From positions 9,736 to 51,002 of the forward strand of contig PCBT01000046.1 in the NCBI GenBank assembly GCA_002731375.1: a stretch of DNA of 41,267 nt. The letters run 5' to 3'. Positions within the stretch are counted from its first letter, which is position 1. The number at the start of each line of letters is the position of its first letter. The notes below the pieces were generated by a model. That model ran no database searches. It had not been told where the DNA came from and worked only from the letters and a program-made list of their open reading frames with translations. The position numbers and the translations under genes are program-made. Positions 7,970 to 36,100 of the stretch are shown here, one piece after another. The stretch comes from Rhodospirillaceae bacterium. Its GTDB lineage: Bacteria; Pseudomonadota; Alphaproteobacteria; GCA-2731375.

Positions 7970-8886
7970 GCGGGGACAATGAAACCTACTCGGCTTCCGG
8001 GGAAGTTGCTCTCGTCCTTCAACGTCGCACCCGCGCTAAGCGCATTTGGATCAGCCTGAAAAATGCCCCGCCGACCGCTTGGTTTGGCATTATTGTCATT
8101 ATTGCCTACTTGTTTGTGGCAATATTCGCTCCAGTGCTCGCACCGCATGGCGAAGCGCAGGTGTTTAAGAAACCGTTTGAGCCTTGGGGTGGAGAATTTC
8201 TTTTCGGCACGGACCAGATAGGTCGCGATGTCTTAAGCCGTCTAATATTTGGTGCTCGTAACACCATCGGTTTCGCCCTGGCGACGACACTATTGTCCTT
8301 CGTCATCGGTGGCTGCTTGGGTCTGGTTGCGGCAATCAACCGTTCTTGGCTTGACCAGGGTTTGAGCCGGGTAGTTGATGTGTTGATGGCGATCCCAAGT
8401 CTAATTTTCGCCCTTATGCTAATAGCTATCTTCGGCTCGACGATTGTGAACCTGATCATAATCATCGCCGTTCTTGATTCCACGCGGGTGTTTCGTTTAA
8501 CCCGGGCGGTCGCAATGAATGTGGTCGTGATGGATTATGTCGAAGCGGCGCATCTGCGTGGAGAAAAGTTGGGTCGTATTATGAGACGTGAAATCTTGCC
8601 TAATATTATGCCGCCACTGGTAGCAGAATTTGGCTTGCGATTTTGTTTCGTGTTCTTGTCGATTGCAGCTTTGTCGTTCCTCGGTGTCGGTATCCAGCCG
8701 CCCACCGCTGATTGGGGATCTATGGTGCGAGACAATGCCTCGCTTATTCAATTCGCACAATATGACATTACCGCGGCCCTAACTCCGCTATTACCGGCCT
8801 CCGCCATTGCCCTATTGACCATTGCCGTCAATTTTGTGGTTGACTGGTTCTTGCATAAGACGAGTGGACTGCGCGATGAACATTGA
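7966..8886 (+). CDS. Peptide-type ABC transporter permease (DppC-like)
   Basis: This is the second inner-membrane permease subunit, 306 residues. The N-terminal cytoplasmic tail and first helix (WFGIIVIIAYLFVAIFAPVLAPHG) fit DppC/OppC. They are followed by the typical FLFGTDQIGRDVLSRLIFGAR block and an EAA-type loop, EAAHLRGEKLGRIMRREILPN. The start ATG overlaps the stop of the upstream permease. The stop lies 11 bases inside the next gene. The pair forms the channel energised by the fused ATPase downstream. Confidence 0.92.
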   Translation: MSGDNETYSASGEVALVLQRRTRAKRIWISLKNAPPTAWFGIIVIIAYLFVAIFAPVLAPHGEAQVFKKPFEPWGGEFLFGTDQIGRDVLSRLIFGARNTIGFALATTLLSFVIGGCLGLVAAINRSWLDQGLSRVVDVLMAIPSLIFALMLIAIFGSTIVNLIIIIAVLDSTRVFRLTRAVAMNVVVMDYVEAAHLRGEKLGRIMRREILPNIMPPLVAEFGLRFCFVFLSIAALSFLGVGIQPPTADWGSMVRDNASLIQFAQYDITAALTPLLPASAIALLTIAVNFVVDWFLHKTSGLRDEH

Positions 8887-24940: not shown

Positions 24941-25930
24941 TTAACCGAGGTAGAATGGCCGGCCCGCCTCGCGCAGCCAGATGCGTACCAGGTGGCGGCG
25001 GCGTTCAGGCTCCGGCCAGTCCTGAAATTCGGTGCGTCGGTGGCCCAATTGCTTGTTGTTGACGATTTGGATCTGGCCGCGCTGAAAGCCAAAGGTTTTG
25101 CCCAGGCCGCCGCGCTCTGAGACCTCCTCCAATACCTTGACGGCCTCGCGGCCACGGGCATCCATGTCCTCTTTGCACATGTCATAGCCCTGCTCGACCA
25201 GGCGGGGCGAGAAATTGGCGAACAGCTTTTCCCCATCGGATTCGAAGACTGGTGTAAAGGACAGGCGTTCGTCGTTTGGCGCATGCTCCATCTGCCGGTC
25301 GAAATAAAATGGTTCGTACAGGCGCGGCAGGATGTCGGGGTATTCCTCCAACAACAAATTATGCACCGTCTCGAAACTGACCAGCCCGCTGACGCCGCCT
25401 TCCTTGGCGGTTTGCAAGCAGAACAAGGCAACAAAATCGGGCGGCAGGTTAAATGCGTTGTCGGTGTGATAGCCCTGTCCACCGTTGGTCTTCGATGAGC
25501 GCACCCCGTTGCCGGCCAGCGCCTTTTGCCCCGTGTCGACGATATCGTATAGCATCGTTCCATCCCATTTCTGGGCGACGGGGCGGCTGATCATGGACAT
25601 CAGCAACCAATAGAGCTTTGTCGCGATATCGCTTTTCAGGTGGTCCACGGGCACACGGTCGATGATCGCGAAACCAACACTATTGTGGATTTGTTCATGG
25701 ACCCGGATCATGGCGGCCTGGCAGGCGGGCATCTCGAAGTCTTGTGGACTCAACGCCTCCGCCGGTAGCGGATTGGCCTCGATTATAGCCGCCGTCGCCT
25801 CCAGCTCGGCGATGCAATCACTACCCAGTTCGATCAAGCCATCATTTTCGAACATTGTTTCGGCCGCCCAGGTCATTGGGCTGGCCAGCGGCCGTTCCAT
25901 TATTTCCCCCATAGCTTTGTCTTTCCCCAT
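24941..25930 (-). CDS. TauD/TfdA-type Fe(II)/2-oxoglutarate dioxygenase
   Basis: This is a predicted cytoplasmic hydroxylase using Fe(II), O2 and 2-oxoglutarate. With the start at 25930 it has 329 residues. The facial triad is visible as His155-x-Asp157 in YHTDNAF and His297 in QLGHRRTEF, and an Arg about 19 residues later (RRRHLVRIWLR, Arg316) would bind 2-oxoglutarate. Three starts are possible: 25930 (13 bases after the upstream stop), 25912, and 25900, which has the best ribosome site (GGGGG at five bases). It is the last gene of the selenoprotein operon. The substrate is unknown, and family members act on taurine, herbicides, betaines and others. Confidence 0.85.
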   Translation of the reverse strand: MGKDKAMGEIMERPLASPMTWAAETMFENDGLIELGSDCIAELEATAAIIEANPLPAEALSPQDFEMPACQAAMIRVHEQIHNSVGFAIIDRVPVDHLKSDIATKLYWLLMSMISRPVAQKWDGTMLYDIVDTGQKALAGNGVRSSKTNGGQGYHTDNAFNLPPDFVALFCLQTAKEGGVSGLVSFETVHNLLLEEYPDILPRLYEPFYFDRQMEHAPNDERLSFTPVFESDGEKLFANFSPRLVEQGYDMCKEDMDARGREAVKVLEEVSERGGLGKTFGFQRGQIQIVNNKQLGHRRTEFQDWPEPERRRHLVRIWLREAGRPFYLG

Positions 25931-25943
25931 TTGTTGCCGTTCT

Positions 25944-27167
25944 TTATTCAAGTCTATGCATTTGTTGCCTGGGCACAAGCTGTCCCAGGGCGACACGTTT
26001 GACGCCCGCATCGGTGGCATCCAGGCAAACAGGATGCAGCGCCAACAGCAGGCGCCCAGCGGCGGTGCCACCCCAGAACCAATCGGCAAGTGCGTGACTG
26101 CTGGCGCGGCCCGGCTGCGCCGTCGCGGCCTCCATATAAAAGCTTTTCATATCTTCCGAAGCACCGCGAAAAGCTTGCCCCAGGCTGAGCTCCGTCGATG
26201 GACTGTCGGCGGCACCATTGTCGATCAACAAGACATGGAGAAACCGCGCAGATGCTTCAATGTCCATTCTGGCCGCCCCAACAGCCGTGCGGCCCCGTGT
26301 CTCGGCGGCAAGTTTCTGCCATGGTGCGAGGCTCGAAATCTCCGCCAAAATACTGGCAAGCAGCGCCGGGATATCCGATGTCTCCGGCGGCGGCAAGGGG
26401 ATGGGACAAGTCCACCCGGTCATGTCTACCTCGGCACTGCCGGGCGCCTCATCGGGAAAATCATCGAGGATTGGTGGGCCGTCCTGACGCTCGAGCAGGG
26501 CCAAGGTGGCGCGCAGGACCTTTGTTTGGAATTCCGGTTCATCAGGCGCCCCGAATGGACGGCCAAGTTCAAACGGCACCCAAAGGAAGCGTGGCGGCCG
26601 CAAGCGTTCGGTGTTGTTACGTACCAGGCTGATTCCCGCCGTCGCCACGCCTTCGTCTTCAATGTAGTGGGCCAGCGCGCCCACGGCGCGGGTGCAGTTG
26701 GGTCAGACCGGGACAAGCAAGGCGGCGTTAACCCCGTCCTCCTTTAACATCCGTCCTACCTCGCGCGCCGTCGGCTCGAAGGCATGGACCAACTGGCCGG
26801 CGCCGTTGAAGGCGTAGTGAAAGTTGGCGATGCCTCCGATTTCGCCCCGCTGTTCCATTTCCCGCAATCGATCCAGGGGGAAGACCACGTTGACATCCTG
26901 CTGAAATCCCGTGCGGTCGTAATTAACCGAGGCCTGGGTCATGACCAGATCATTCAGTTCCACATCGCCGGGGATCAGCCGATAACTAAGATCGCCAAGG
27001 TCGAAATTCTTGTCATCTCGGCGATGCAGACCGGCGGTGGTCACGATGGCAACCCGGCGCTCCTTCAGGGGCGAGCCCGAGACTCAGGGCTGGCTTTCAA
27101 AGGGCGGGCAGTCCTTGTCCAGCAAATGCTGAGCGGAGGCAGAATGAATATCTGTCAGACGGACCAT
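25944..27167 (-). CDS. Selenoprotein of the glycine/sarcosine/betaine/D-proline reductase B family (in-frame UGA = Sec)
   Basis: Read through UGA, one frame joins two pieces into a 407-residue protein. Sec155 (UGA 26705-26703) lies in LLVPV-U-PNC, a U-x-x-C redox motif at the position where GrdB/PrdB-type proteins carry Sec. A SECIS-like hairpin follows. The N-terminal part has RVAIVTTAGLHRRDD, YRLIPGD and NYDRTGFQQDVNVVFPLDRL. The C-terminal part has GALAHYIEDEGVATAGISLVR and RFLWVPFELGRPFGAPDEP. ATG 27167 is two bases after the amidohydrolase stop, which supports this start. A second in-frame UGA is at codon 28 (27086-27084), so full-length synthesis is not certain. The natural substrate in a probably aerobic host is unknown. 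A thiol/selenol-dependent reductive cleavage is inferred. Confidence 0.82.
26676..26705 (-). promoter_or_regulatory. Sec UGA codon and bacterial SECIS-like hairpin of the GrdB-family gene
   Basis: On the minus strand UGA (26705-26703) is followed by 18 bases, then a GTG loop (26684-26682) closed by a perfect six-pair stem CGCGCC (26690-26685) / GGCGCG (26681-26676). The published bacterial SECIS pattern asks for an apical loop roughly 16-37 bases after UGA with a G in its first two positions, and both hold here. SelB would bind this loop. Confidence 0.72.
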
Positions 27168-27169
27168 TG

Positions 27170-28072
27170 CTACAGCCTATAGGTTTCGGCGGCGTTGTCG
27201 TGAAACAGCTTGCGCTGGTGGCTGTCCGATAGATCCTTCGTGATCTCCAAGAAACCACCGAAGATGGTGGCAAAGCCACCAACCATGCTGTCGACCGGAA
27301 AGTTCGAAGCGAACATGCAGCGTCCGACGCCAAAGATCCGAATGACATCGCGCACCACGCCCCGCTGCCGCGCAACGTTCCAGGCATGGCCGGCCTCGCC
27401 GATGCCGGAAATTTTGACCTTGACGTTTGGCTGTTCGGCCAGCTCCACCATGCCGGCTCGCCAGGCGCTCAAGCCGGATGTGGAGCGATCCTCTGGAACT
27501 CCGGCATGGTTCAGGACGATCGTGATGTCGGGGAAGTCCCGCGCCAGGGCGGCGGCCTCGCCCAGATGCCAATATCGGGTCTGCAATTCATAATGCAGGC
27601 CATATTTGACCAACAGCCCATAGCCGGCCCGCCAGATGGGATCGGACATGGAGCCTGGAAGCCCTACTTGCATTTGCTCAGGACTGGGTGCGGAGCTGGG
27701 TTTTTGCCGTACTGCGCGGACTAGGGGATAGGCTGCATGGCCGGCCAGCACATCGTGGATATCGTCCCGGTCGAACCAGGCTTGGCCAATGATGGCGCTG
27801 GGCAATCCCTCGGCCTCGGCCAGGTCATGCAGCCAGCGGGTCTCTCCCACGGGGTCGTCGGAGCGCCGCTCCGCTTCCATATGGACGCTGCCTGCGATCT
27901 GGAATTCCGCTGTGTCTTGGCGGTAATCGCTAGGTAGATAATCCCGCGACAGCGGCGCTACCGGGCCATAGCGGTGCGGCGGCGCGTCGGCGTTTTCCAG
28001 CCAGGGATAATTGCCCTGGCCCAGACGCCAAAAATGCTGATGGCAATCAATGATGGGAAATGCATCGGTCAA
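27170..28072 (-). CDS. Amidohydrolase-2 family hydrolase (L-fuconolactonase/dicarboxylate-lactonase-like)
   Basis: This is a TIM-barrel metal-dependent hydrolase of 300 residues related to COG3618. The N-terminal metal motif is IIDCHQHFW (His-x-His). A barrel histidine is in VLNHAGVPEDR, and the C-terminal block CMFASNFPVDS carries the catalytic Asp position typical of the family. Start is TTG 28072, overlapping the DUF1491 stop by two bases, with a GAGGA ribosome site upstream. It is followed two bases later by the selenoprotein gene, so the two are translationally coupled. Members hydrolyse lactones or decarboxylate aromatic acids, and the substrate here is unknown. Confidence 0.85.
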   Translation of the reverse strand: MTDAFPIIDCHQHFWRLGQGNYPWLENADAPPHRYGPVAPLSRDYLPSDYRQDTAEFQIAGSVHMEAERRSDDPVGETRWLHDLAEAEGLPSAIIGQAWFDRDDIHDVLAGHAAYPLVRAVRQKPSSAPSPEQMQVGLPGSMSDPIWRAGYGLLVKYGLHYELQTRYWHLGEAAALARDFPDITIVLNHAGVPEDRSTSGLSAWRAGMVELAEQPNVKVKISGIGEAGHAWNVARQRGVVRDVIRIFGVGRCMFASNFPVDSMVGGFATIFGGFLEITKDLSDSHQRKLFHDNAAETYRL

Positions 28073-28443
28073 TCGAGAATGTCCTCAAGCAAATGGCGGC
28101 CTTCGCGGTCCTCGATCTCCAGCAGCCACAAGTCCGGGTCCATGTTCAATTGCCGCGCCATATAGGCATCGGCCTCTACCTCCGCCACCAGGGCATCGCC
28201 CCGTTCATCACCTCGTTCATCACCCAGGGCCCGGCGCCATTTCCGCCCGCCATCAAGATTGCTGCTGTCCATGCTTGAGGCGGGTGCCAGCACCATGCAA
28301 CCGGGACCCAGATGATTGACCTTGATAAAGATGGCGCCGGCGGTGTTGTCGCCGTGGCGGACCACCATGGCCGGAATGGCCTGCAGGCCGCATTTGCGGA
28401 TATGTGCCTTGACCCATAATTCGGTGGCGAGGCGCGGCTGCAT
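28069..28443 (-). CDS. DUF1491 family protein
   Basis: This is a small cytoplasmic protein of 124 residues. The N-terminus LATELWVKAHIRKCGLQAIPAMVVRHGDNTAGAIFIKVN matches the DUF1491 pattern, a family I know essentially from alphaproteobacteria. The acidic C-terminus has YMARQLNMDPDLWLLEIEDREGRHLLED. I choose ATG 28443, eight bases after the tag stop, over an upstream in-frame start inside tag. A GDERGDERGD tandem lies near the middle. No function is known. Confidence 0.85.
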   Translation of the reverse strand: MQPRLATELWVKAHIRKCGLQAIPAMVVRHGDNTAGAIFIKVNHLGPGCMVLAPASSMDSSNLDGGRKWRRALGDERGDERGDALVAEVEADAYMARQLNMDPDLWLLEIEDREGRHLLEDILD

Positions 28444-30057: not shown

Positions 30058-31023
30058 ATGAAAATCCTGTTTATCTCGCATAATCGTCTTGGCGACGCCG
30101 TCCTTTCGACCGGACTGCTGGCGCACTTGGTACGCGCATATCCCGAGGCCCGTCTGACCATCGCCTGTGGTCCGGCGCCCGCACCCTTGTTGCGGTTGGC
30201 GCCGAATGTGGACACGGTGTTCGTGATGGAAAAAGCGCCCCTAGCCGGCCATTGGCGCCGTTTATGGCAACAGGCTGTCACGCAACGCTGGGACTTGGTG
30301 GTGGATCTGCGCGCCTCGTTGCTAGCTTGGCTGCTGTGGTCCAGGCAGCGTAAGGTCCTGCGGCCAAACGCGGTTAGCCTGCACCGGGTGCGCCATGTCG
30401 CGGGCGTCTTGAACCTGCCCGAACCGCCGCCGGCGCCCGAGCTGTGGCTGCGCCCGGAACACGAGCAGGCGGCGGGCGAACATCTGCCGGCGGGCGGGCC
30501 AATTCTGGCTTTGGGCCCCACGGCCAATTGGGGCGGCAAGCAGTGGCCCATAGAGCGGTTTTTGCACTTGGCCCGGCGCCTGATTAGCCCGGGCGGTCTG
30601 CTGCCGGGGGGGCGTGTCGCGGTGTTTGGTGGGCTGAACGAACGGACGGCGGCACAGCCTCTGTTGAACGGCCTGCCGGGCGATCAATTGATTGATCTGA
30701 TTGGCCGGATTGATCTGCCCGTGGTGCTGGCTTGCCTGGCACGCGCCGATTGTTTTATCGGCAACGATTCGGGCCTGATGCACATGGCCGCCGCCGTCCA
30801 GGTTCCGACGCTTGGTCTGTTCGGTCCCAGCCGTGAGGAATTGTACGCTCCCTGGGGCGACAAGGCGGCCTTTGTACGTACCGACCTTGGTTTTGACGAC
30901 ATTCGCAACAATCCGGCTTACGATTACTGCTGCCAGGATAGTTGGATGGATACTTTGTCGATTGAAAAGGTGGAAACGGCGGTGCACGCCCTGTTGACCA
31001 GAGCTCGTGAGACGGCGGAATGA
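30058..31023 (+). CDS. Glycosyltransferase family 9 (heptosyltransferase-like)
   Basis: This is an ADP-heptose:LPS heptosyltransferase-type enzyme of 321 residues, probably membrane-associated on the cytoplasmic side and acting in lipopolysaccharide core synthesis. The N-terminus MKILFISHNRLGDAVLSTGLLAHL is the GT9 signature. The C-terminal nucleotide-sugar site is in FIGNDSGLMHMAAAVQVPTLGLFGPS. It starts a plus-strand operon of three glycosyltransferases plus asnB, and overlaps the next gene by four bases (ATGA). Confidence 0.9.
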   Translation: MKILFISHNRLGDAVLSTGLLAHLVRAYPEARLTIACGPAPAPLLRLAPNVDTVFVMEKAPLAGHWRRLWQQAVTQRWDLVVDLRASLLAWLLWSRQRKVLRPNAVSLHRVRHVAGVLNLPEPPPAPELWLRPEHEQAAGEHLPAGGPILALGPTANWGGKQWPIERFLHLARRLISPGGLLPGGRVAVFGGLNERTAAQPLLNGLPGDQLIDLIGRIDLPVVLACLARADCFIGNDSGLMHMAAAVQVPTLGLFGPSREELYAPWGDKAAFVRTDLGFDDIRNNPAYDYCCQDSWMDTLSIEKVETAVHALLTRARETAE

Positions 31024-34762: not shown

Positions 34763-36100
34763 GCCGAAACGTTTGATTTGTTGCTGCGCGGCGGCACCCT
34801 CGTCACCCACAATGGTATTGCCCTCGGTGACGTTGGTGTACGGGATGGCCGAATTATGTCCATTGGCGATTTGGCCGCCGCCGCCGCCGGCGAAGTCGTT
34901 GATGCCACGGGGTTGCACGTTCTGCCCGGCGTGATCGATACCCAGGTGCATTTCCGAGAGCCGGGTAACGAGCATAAGGAGAACCTTGAAGCTGGTTCCC
35001 GCGGCGCCGTCCTGGGTGGTGTCACCGCCGTGTTCGAGATGCCGAATACCTCTCCCTTGACCACAAACCCCGAGGCTCTTGCGGATAAATTGTCCAGCGC
35101 CAAGGATCGCATGTGGTGCGAGCATGCCTTCTATATGGGCGGCACCAGCGAGAACGCTGAGCAACTGCCGGAACTGGAGCGGCTGCCGGGCTGCTGCGGG
35201 GTGAAGATCTTCATGGGCTCGTCCACTGGCAATCTGCTGACCGAGGACGATCCCACCTTACGCCGGATCCTGGGCGCCATTAACCGCCGTTGCGCTGTGC
35301 ATGCCGAGGACGAACCGCGCCTGAAGGAGCGCCAGCACCTAGCCGAGGAAGCCGCCAATCCCGCCGCGCACCCATTGTGGCGAGACCCGGAGACGGCCTT
35401 GCGCGCCACCAAACGACTGATCGCCATTGTCCGGGAAACCGGCGCCCGGGTGCATGTGCTGCACATTACCACGGCGGAGGAAATGTACTTTCTGGCCGAG
35501 AACAAGGATGTTGCCTCGGTGGAGGCGACGCCCCAGCATCTGACCCTGGCCGCGCCTGATTGCTATGACCAGATGGGCACACGGGCCCAGATGAATCCGC
35601 CGATCCGCGATGAGGGCCACCGCCAGGGCCTGTGGTGGGGTTTGGATCAGGGCGTGGTGGATATCATCGGCTCCGACCATGCGCCTCATACCCAGAAAGA
35701 AAAGGCGGAAACCTATCCGTCCTCTCCCTCCGGCATGCCCGGTGTGCAGACCCTTTTGCCGATCATGCTGGACCATGTGGCGAATGGCCGTTTGAGCTTG
35801 TTGCGCCTGATGGATTTGGTTTGTGCCGGCCCGGTGAGATTATTCGGCATCGCCCGCAAGGGGCGCATCGCGGTTGGTTATGATGGCGACTTTACCCTGG
35901 TGGACTTAAGCGCCAAACGCACCATCCTAGATCAGGACATGGCTAATATCTCGGGCTGGACGCCGTTCCATGGCCGCGAGGTTACCGGTTGGCCCATGGC
36001 GACGATTATCCGGGGCCATGTGGTTGTGCGTGATGGCCAATTGATCGGCCAGGCTGGTGGGCAGCCTTTAAGTTTCGCCGAGACCTTGCCGGGGCAATAA
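34760..36100 (+). CDS. pyrC: Dihydroorotase, class I type
   Basis: The enzyme cyclises carbamoyl aspartate to dihydroorotate in pyrimidine synthesis. The protein has 446 residues. The metal motif is DTQVHFREPG (His-x-His-type pair), and EMPNTSPLTT, KIFMGSST (bridging Lys), VHAEDE, HVLHITTAEE and the catalytic Asp in IGSDHAPHT are all visible. Close relatives include allantoinases and hydantoinases, but the motif set favours dihydroorotase. It is separated from asnB by the MITE. Confidence 0.92.
   Translation: MAETFDLLLRGGTLVTHNGIALGDVGVRDGRIMSIGDLAAAAAGEVVDATGLHVLPGVIDTQVHFREPGNEHKENLEAGSRGAVLGGVTAVFEMPNTSPLTTNPEALADKLSSAKDRMWCEHAFYMGGTSENAEQLPELERLPGCCGVKIFMGSSTGNLLTEDDPTLRRILGAINRRCAVHAEDEPRLKERQHLAEEAANPAAHPLWRDPETALRATKRLIAIVRETGARVHVLHITTAEEMYFLAENKDVASVEATPQHLTLAAPDCYDQMGTRAQMNPPIRDEGHRQGLWWGLDQGVVDIIGSDHAPHTQKEKAETYPSSPSGMPGVQTLLPIMLDHVANGRLSLLRLMDLVCAGPVRLFGIARKGRIAVGYDGDFTLVDLSAKRTILDQDMANISGWTPFHGREVTGWPMATIIRGHVVVRDGQLIGQAGGQPLSFAETLPGQ

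Follow-up and report, generated by a model that had tools for sequence, protein, structure and literature searches.

The 41,267-nt window (the whole stretch of DNA analyzed, from the draft genome of a Rhodospirillaceae bacterium) encodes on its minus strand what, judged from sequence, is very probably a genuine selenoprotein. It belongs to a known superfamily, within which its two-domain form is distinct, and none of the classical partners was found with it. The joint explanation that we hold to be quite likely combines insertion of selenocysteine (Sec) at codon 155 through SelB, tRNA-Sec, and a downstream hairpin with a U-x-x-C redox center that would act without a pyruvoyl partner, and it treats a second in-frame UGA, at codon 28, as an artefact or a nonsense change. 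The features discussed here are the following, in positions of the window.

24941 to 25930, minus strand: TauD-type Fe/2OG dioxygenase gene (PF02668), downstream
25944 to 27167, minus strand: GrdB/PrdB-like selenoprotein frame, 407 residues if UGA codons 28 and 155 are both read
25947 to 26417, minus strand: C-terminal extension, residues 251 to 407, with Cys254 near its start and then an all-helical part (model residues 268 to 406)
26448 to 27083, minus strand: GrdB/PrdB-like domain, approximately residues 29 to 240 (PF07355 at 34 to 152, TIGR04483 at 32 to 227)
26676 to 26690, minus strand: SECIS-like hairpin CGCGCC-GTG-GGCGCG, loop at +19 after UGA 155, with pair conservation
26703 to 26705, minus strand: UGA codon 155, very probable Sec of a U-P-N-C motif; TGA in 79 of the best 80 relatives, Cys in two further relatives without a selA match
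27084 to 27086, minus strand: second in-frame UGA, codon 28; a sense codon in relatives (Trp/Phe/Tyr, one Ala)
27170 to 28072, minus strand: Amidohydro_2 gene (PF04909), upstream

Codon 155 and the downstream hairpin

The initial annotation had joined two frames at the UGA in 26705-26703. The frame does run through this TGA, but a second in-frame TGA at 27086-27084 had been overlooked: joined over UGA 155 alone, the uninterrupted frame extends from 27083 down, and the ATG at 27167 is reached only via two UGAs. Two nucleotides lie between the amidohydrolase stop and this ATG, and 13 nt separate the selenoprotein stop from the likely ATG of the TauD-type gene, a start read by eye. Compared with an 86%-identical relative (locus L048), the window frame shows a dN of 0.083 and a dS of 0.73 (dN/dS of approximately 0.11), with low ratios on both sides of UGA 155.

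A scan of GTDB genomes with the window protein yielded 394 relatives, and we retained the best 80. Codon 155 is TGA in 79 of these best 80, with homology before and after it, and none of the relatives examined terminates here. The PrdB profile spans residues 32 to 227, thus lying on either side of codon 155 and bearing out the earlier observation of family motifs flanking the UGA, and the proposed U-x-x-C motif is present as U-P-N-C. Cys158 and Cys254 are each found in 81 of 81 aligned rows (the window and the best 80 of the 394 relatives); Cys254 is absent from L145 and L148, two more distant copies in genomes of the same class. The predicted Sec155 together with Cys158 is the conserved center of the protein. 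The one exception at codon 155, locus L062, has CGA at the Sec codon and an intact hairpin, and represents either an error or a recent change.

A family member at E <= 1e-40 is present in 16 of the 241 genomes of the class (the window's own included), and in two of these 16 the copy carries Cys, encoded by TGC in L147 and by TGT in L149. selA scores over the cut-off in all 13 of the other class genomes whose copy has UGA and in neither of the two whose copy has Cys, its absence being weak in one of the latter because that genome is 83% complete; among five genomes without a match to the window protein, selA is over the cut-off in one. With TGA at this codon in 79 of the best 80 relatives, the hairpin kept, the machinery present (see below), and Cys in relatives without selA, we conclude that Sec is very probably inserted at UGA 26705-26703, as had been proposed. 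That it is an ordinary stop, separating two genes or marking a decayed pseudogene, seems extremely improbable: translation table 11 does read UGA as stop, and the downstream part could begin at GTG 26684, but such a reading is at odds with TGA and homology on either side of it across these relatives, with Cys at the same position in two genomes lacking a selA match, with the conserved hairpin, and with low dN/dS on either side of the UGA. Reassignment of UGA to Trp, which would explain both UGAs, was rejected, as the tRNA-Trp anticodon is CCA (in the loci scanned only) and codon 155 is never Trp in the relatives examined.

Bacterial SECIS elements are hairpins located just downstream of the UGA, with a G in the apical loop. 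In the window, the six-pair hairpin CGCGCC-GTG-GGCGCG occupies 26690-26676, and its loop begins 19 nt past TGA 155. Because the hairpin sits in coding sequence, synonymous codons resampled from the same genes served as the control. Among 74 distinct 30-mers, 391 of 444 pairs form versus 266.7 +/- 8.2 expected from synonymous-codon shuffles, all six pairs are found in 29 versus 3.3 expected, and the loop is GTN in 74 of 74. Over 80 distinct 60-mers, 426 of 480 pairs form (292 expected under synonymous-codon resampling), all six being complete in just 34 of the 80 sequences, and a hairpin scan ranks the +19 hairpin, with its nested registers, at the top, the seven-pair form reaching 492 of 560 pairs versus 325. 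Hairpin z-scores are not probabilities here, because the 80 relatives are mutually related.

RNAfold alone, applied to 16 near relatives, gives a triloop hairpin at +19 in 11 of them; for the isolated window segment, it prefers a different hairpin at +25. The segment after UGA 155 folds at -13.6 kcal/mol, a stability that does not exceed that of shuffled sequences (z of -0.19). The hairpin with a GTG loop at +19 that had been described is confirmed and conserved, but folding of the isolated window segment does not give it as the minimum-energy structure. The +25 minimum-energy hairpin was discarded as a SECIS candidate: 366 of 480 pairs form versus 342 expected, and 2 of the 80 sequences have all six. 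In each of the seven paralogs of the window's own genome, six or more of the eight pairs form in the same register around a GTN loop, and in six paralogs the stem letters are clearly different; paralog L160 has eight pairs around GTA, with quite different letters. In the Cys relative L147, six pairs are retained around a loop without the initial G.

The second in-frame UGA at codon 28

Every one of the 79 relatives with a residue at position 28 has a sense codon: the best 80 comprise 47 with Trp, 29 with Phe, two with Tyr, one with Ala, and one gap, and neither UGA nor Cys occurs at this codon in any of them. Relative to L048, codons 1 to 27 show a dN of 0.10 and a dS of 0.52, on few sites. 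UGA 28 is most likely an artefact or a recent nonsense change and not a second Sec codon, and the window copy, interrupted here, may be dead.

A population or assembly artefact, or a polymorphism, is somewhat probable. It is also possible, if rather doubtful, that a real and recent nonsense change has left this copy inactive or N-terminally truncated (e.g., starting from GTG 27044) in a family whose members are still selenoproteins. The TGA is assembled without ambiguity and absent from every relative, and one of eight GrdB-family genes could be dispensable. A start at codon 42 would remove part of the first predicted strand (residues 38 to 43 in the L048 model), so that a truncated product would probably not work, and we rejected GTG 27044 as a downstream start on the same ground. 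The frame, on the other hand, is otherwise unbroken, its dN/dS is approximately 0.11 versus L048, and the neighboring genes look intact. Among the 19 L048 frames compared with the window, four rows contain stops. The stop at 28087 lies upstream of the amidohydrolase start (28072), and those at 30963 and 31008 likewise precede the gene that begins at 31020; a third row, antisense to the selenoprotein gene, has its stop at 26745, and the fourth, of 66% identity, at 35260. Leaving the 35260 row aside, there are no stops inside neighboring genes versus L048 as far as resolved. Scattered single N bases occur in some other contigs of the draft; the window contains none.

A two-Sec protein, with both UGAs recoded, is very unlikely. 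The frame is open and conserved in codons 1 to 27 too, the genome decodes Sec, and RNAfold predicts after UGA 28 a bulged stem-loop with a 10-nt loop starting with G at +12, whose -13.3 kcal/mol is similar to the -13.6 after UGA 155. Against this, no Sec or Cys is found at position 28 in the best 80 relatives, the stem-loop does not exceed shuffled sequences in stability (z of 0.59), and most of 16 sense-codon relatives fold equally well or better at the same place. Loops of bacterial SECIS elements lie approximately 16 to 37 nt after the UGA, a range that excludes +12. Perfect hairpins of at least five pairs after UGA 28 have loops at +9, +35, or +36, none of which starts with G. Another copy with an extra stop is L144/L032 (G048), which has an in-frame TAG at residue 281 besides its Sec UGA.

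Selenocysteine machinery and its linkage to the gene

A search of the genome for selA, selB, and tRNA-Sec, suggested earlier as a check, recovered all three. selA (580 bits) adjoins selB (426 bits) on a contig other than the window's, and the tRNA-Sec scores 73 bits, with the ARAGORN anticodon tca. A second RF01852 match over the cut-off (C47, 50.5 bits) is called tRNA-Ser by ARAGORN and was not counted. The draft (G000) is 96% complete, with a listed contamination of 6.66%. Contigs C111 and C10 of this genome share one arrangement of an EF-Tu-like gene with tRNA-Tyr, -Gly, and -Trp, which represents either a second copy or contamination. selB was over the cut-off in 13 of 13 hand-chosen genomes, comprising the window's own, SAR116 and other Alphaproteobacteria, Acidobacteria, Chloroflexi, Nitrospinota, Desulfobacterales, and others.

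Of the 13 UGA-copy genomes of the class besides the window's own, seven have selA at most 10 kb from the gene for the 407-residue protein, and six have it on another contig. The distances are approximately 0.13 kb in G198, 2.2 kb in G068, 4.5 kb in G048, 5.3 kb in G200, 7.0 kb in G113, 7.1 kb in G013, and 9.9 kb in G212 (loci L153 to L158 and L113); G113 and G212 belong to one family. AIR-synthase (SelD-type) genes are near in L155, L156, and L157, three of the selA-linked loci inspected. A frame of selB size stands beside selA at linked loci, the tblastn scan having covered only L070, L071, and L113. These three are also the loci with selA among the best 80 GTDB loci (flanks of up to 8 kb), and L113 is probably the same locus as G013:C80.

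Family, partner subunits, and putative role

The protein matches PF07355 at residues 34 to 152 with 44.8 bits, over the gathering threshold of 22. This alignment covers positions 223 to 345 of the 347 in the profile, and since it starts at position 223, the window protein is without the first part of GrdB. All five matching NCBIfam models stay below their own cut-offs: the PrdB profile TIGR04483 (residues 32 to 227) scores 117 bits against 300, TIGR01917 scores 48 against 602, TIGR01918 scores 52.5 against 65.45, and NF040794 and NF040795 fall far below theirs. The assignment to the GrdB/PrdB family thus stands as a relationship, through PF07355, but the curated equivalog cut-offs for GrdB and PrdB are not reached.

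Beyond the PrdB-like part, the protein extends by approximately 165 residues. The C-terminal part of relatives matched no family in Pfam (five of five fragments) or NCBIfam (three of three fragments). An AlphaFold2 model of L048 (65 sequences; mean pLDDT, 89.9; pTM, 0.87) shows a mixed N-terminal part of strands and helices, in which residue 155 follows strand 148-152 and precedes helix 156-171; beyond it, starting at residue 268, seven helices are predicted. A fold search of the PDB with this model gave no match at E <= 0.001; in a profile search of the PDB, the best row was a designed repeat protein, with no stretch passing alone.

D-proline reduction is a fermentation of anaerobes, and the initial annotation had judged classical Stickland reduction improbable for this protein. 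In agreement with this, GrdA (PF04723) is found in none of 21 genomes, the window's own 96%-complete draft included, and the search works, as GrdA was detected in two of 12 other genomes with a family member (those of L110, a Desulfobacterales locus, and L087). PrdA (TIGR04480) is likewise found in none of the 21, in a search with no positive control over the cut-off; among the 12 other genomes it gave weak matches in two, all under the cut-off. A genuine glycine, betaine, or D-proline reductase subunit working in Stickland-type reduction would agree with the PF07355 score (44.8 versus a gathering threshold of 22), the 117 bits to the PrdB profile, and the U-x-x-C motif, but is very improbable given that all five NCBIfam models score under their cut-offs, that neither GrdA nor PrdA (the latter without control) is seen in 21 genomes, that the C-terminal part extends beyond the PrdB profile, and that a Fe/2OG dioxygenase gene adjoins. 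The protein resembles PrdB in its homology at residues 32 to 227 and in the Sec of U-x-x-C, and differs from it in score (117 versus 300 bits), in the approximately 165 extra C-terminal residues, and in having no PrdA match. With the GrdB/GrdF/GrdH selenoprotein B (PF07355) it shares a profile match to position 345 of 347 and U-x-x-C, whereas it lacks approximately the first two thirds of that profile, remains under the family cut-offs, and has no GrdA.

Because no GrdA or PrdA match was found, and the protein has a helical C-terminal domain in their place, the enzyme probably does not depend on a pyruvoyl partner, and the best reading is that of a putative stand-alone selenol/thiol reductase. 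Sequence comparison strongly supports the view that SelB and tRNA-Sec, with the hairpin that immediately follows, recode UGA 155 to Sec. Sec155 and Cys158 would form a U-x-x-C redox center. By analogy with PrdB/GrdB chemistry, and considering the conservation, the selenolate of Sec155 may attack a substrate bond, after which a Se-S bridge would form with Cys158 and be reset by a cellular thiol system, possibly via Cys254 as a candidate relay.

The neighbors of the gene differ from locus to locus among relatives. A TauD-type gene is nearby in seven of the 81 loci compared (window included), and TauD is the commonest family in a tally of adjacent co-directional frames, with five of 61. This tally covers 61 of 73 such frames, 12 (mostly near-duplicates) having been excluded by hand; the frames were chosen by length and are not verified genes, and the window's own neighbors stand outside it. 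Since even the commonest neighbor family reaches only 5 of 61, there appears to be no obligate partner gene. The TauD-type neighbor in the window shows weak similarity, below the cut-off, to TmpA/gamma-butyrobetaine dioxygenase. The selenoprotein would most likely provide a reductive step in small-molecule catabolism beside the Fe/2OG dioxygenase and the amidohydrolase; our preferred guess, a tentative one, is a role next to oxygenase-based catabolism of small amines or similar compounds.

The initial annotation had presented the gene as a hidden selenoprotein. This kind is already known, because marine "PrdB" selenoproteins with UxxC have been in print since 2005, reported as abundant in the Sargasso Sea (2005) and GOS (2008) data: the counts by Zhang and colleagues were 42 "PrdB" sequences with UXXC for the former (PMC1088965) and 235 "PrdB" with pfam07355, plus 110 Cys homologs, for the latter (PMC2398784). 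In a later survey, proline reductase made up 6.4% of marine selenoprotein genes (PMC9402790), and a 2026 review lists GrdB (PF07355) and D-proline reductase (TIGR04483) with UxxC (PMC13188914). According to a 2006 survey, a neighboring fdhA was the sole selenoprotein gene of the Sec-decoding Alphaproteobacteria then known (PMC1794560). Our literature search gave, among the matches listed, no account of the 407-residue two-domain form.

The selenoprotein has many little-studied relatives. If the marine "PrdB" counts contain the two-domain family without GrdA/PrdA, the annotation "proline reductase" is misleading, and if these counts are that family, an unassigned selenium-dependent reaction would be common in the ocean. 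The linkage to selA offers a handle on why such bacteria retain the Sec trait. Speculatively, the putative 407-residue family could be a self-contained selenoenzyme for reductive bond cleavage in oxygen-respiring marine bacteria, acting with no pyruvoyl partner on a compound shared with Fe/2OG dioxygenases, and could count among the main reasons for marine Alphaproteobacteria to retain and mobilize the Sec cassette.

The window's genome contains eight GrdB-family places by protein search (the window gene, one at 50% identity, and six at 31 to 36%); a search with PF07355 alone gives seven. All eight genes have a UGA in the motif, which is U-x-x-C in seven and U-x-x-D in one. The approximately 300-residue GrdB-like paralogs resemble the window gene in the UGA of the aligned motif and in a hairpin at the same place with a GUN loop, and differ from it in sequence (31 to 36% identity) and in the motif itself, UPVCHQTV in five and UPLDHQTV in one versus UPNCTRAV. 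As their stop-to-stop frames measure only 297 to 330 residues, these paralogs lack room for the 407-residue architecture. The seven further places, with one in-frame UGA each, are on contigs C9, C11, C25, C85, C89 (two), and C92 of G000, and the U-x-x-D paralog (L162 876-878, on C89) keeps the hairpin. Genome G004 has 11 matches to the window protein, and L065 carries a tandem pair, in which the first family member is directly preceded by the end of a second (8001-8460).
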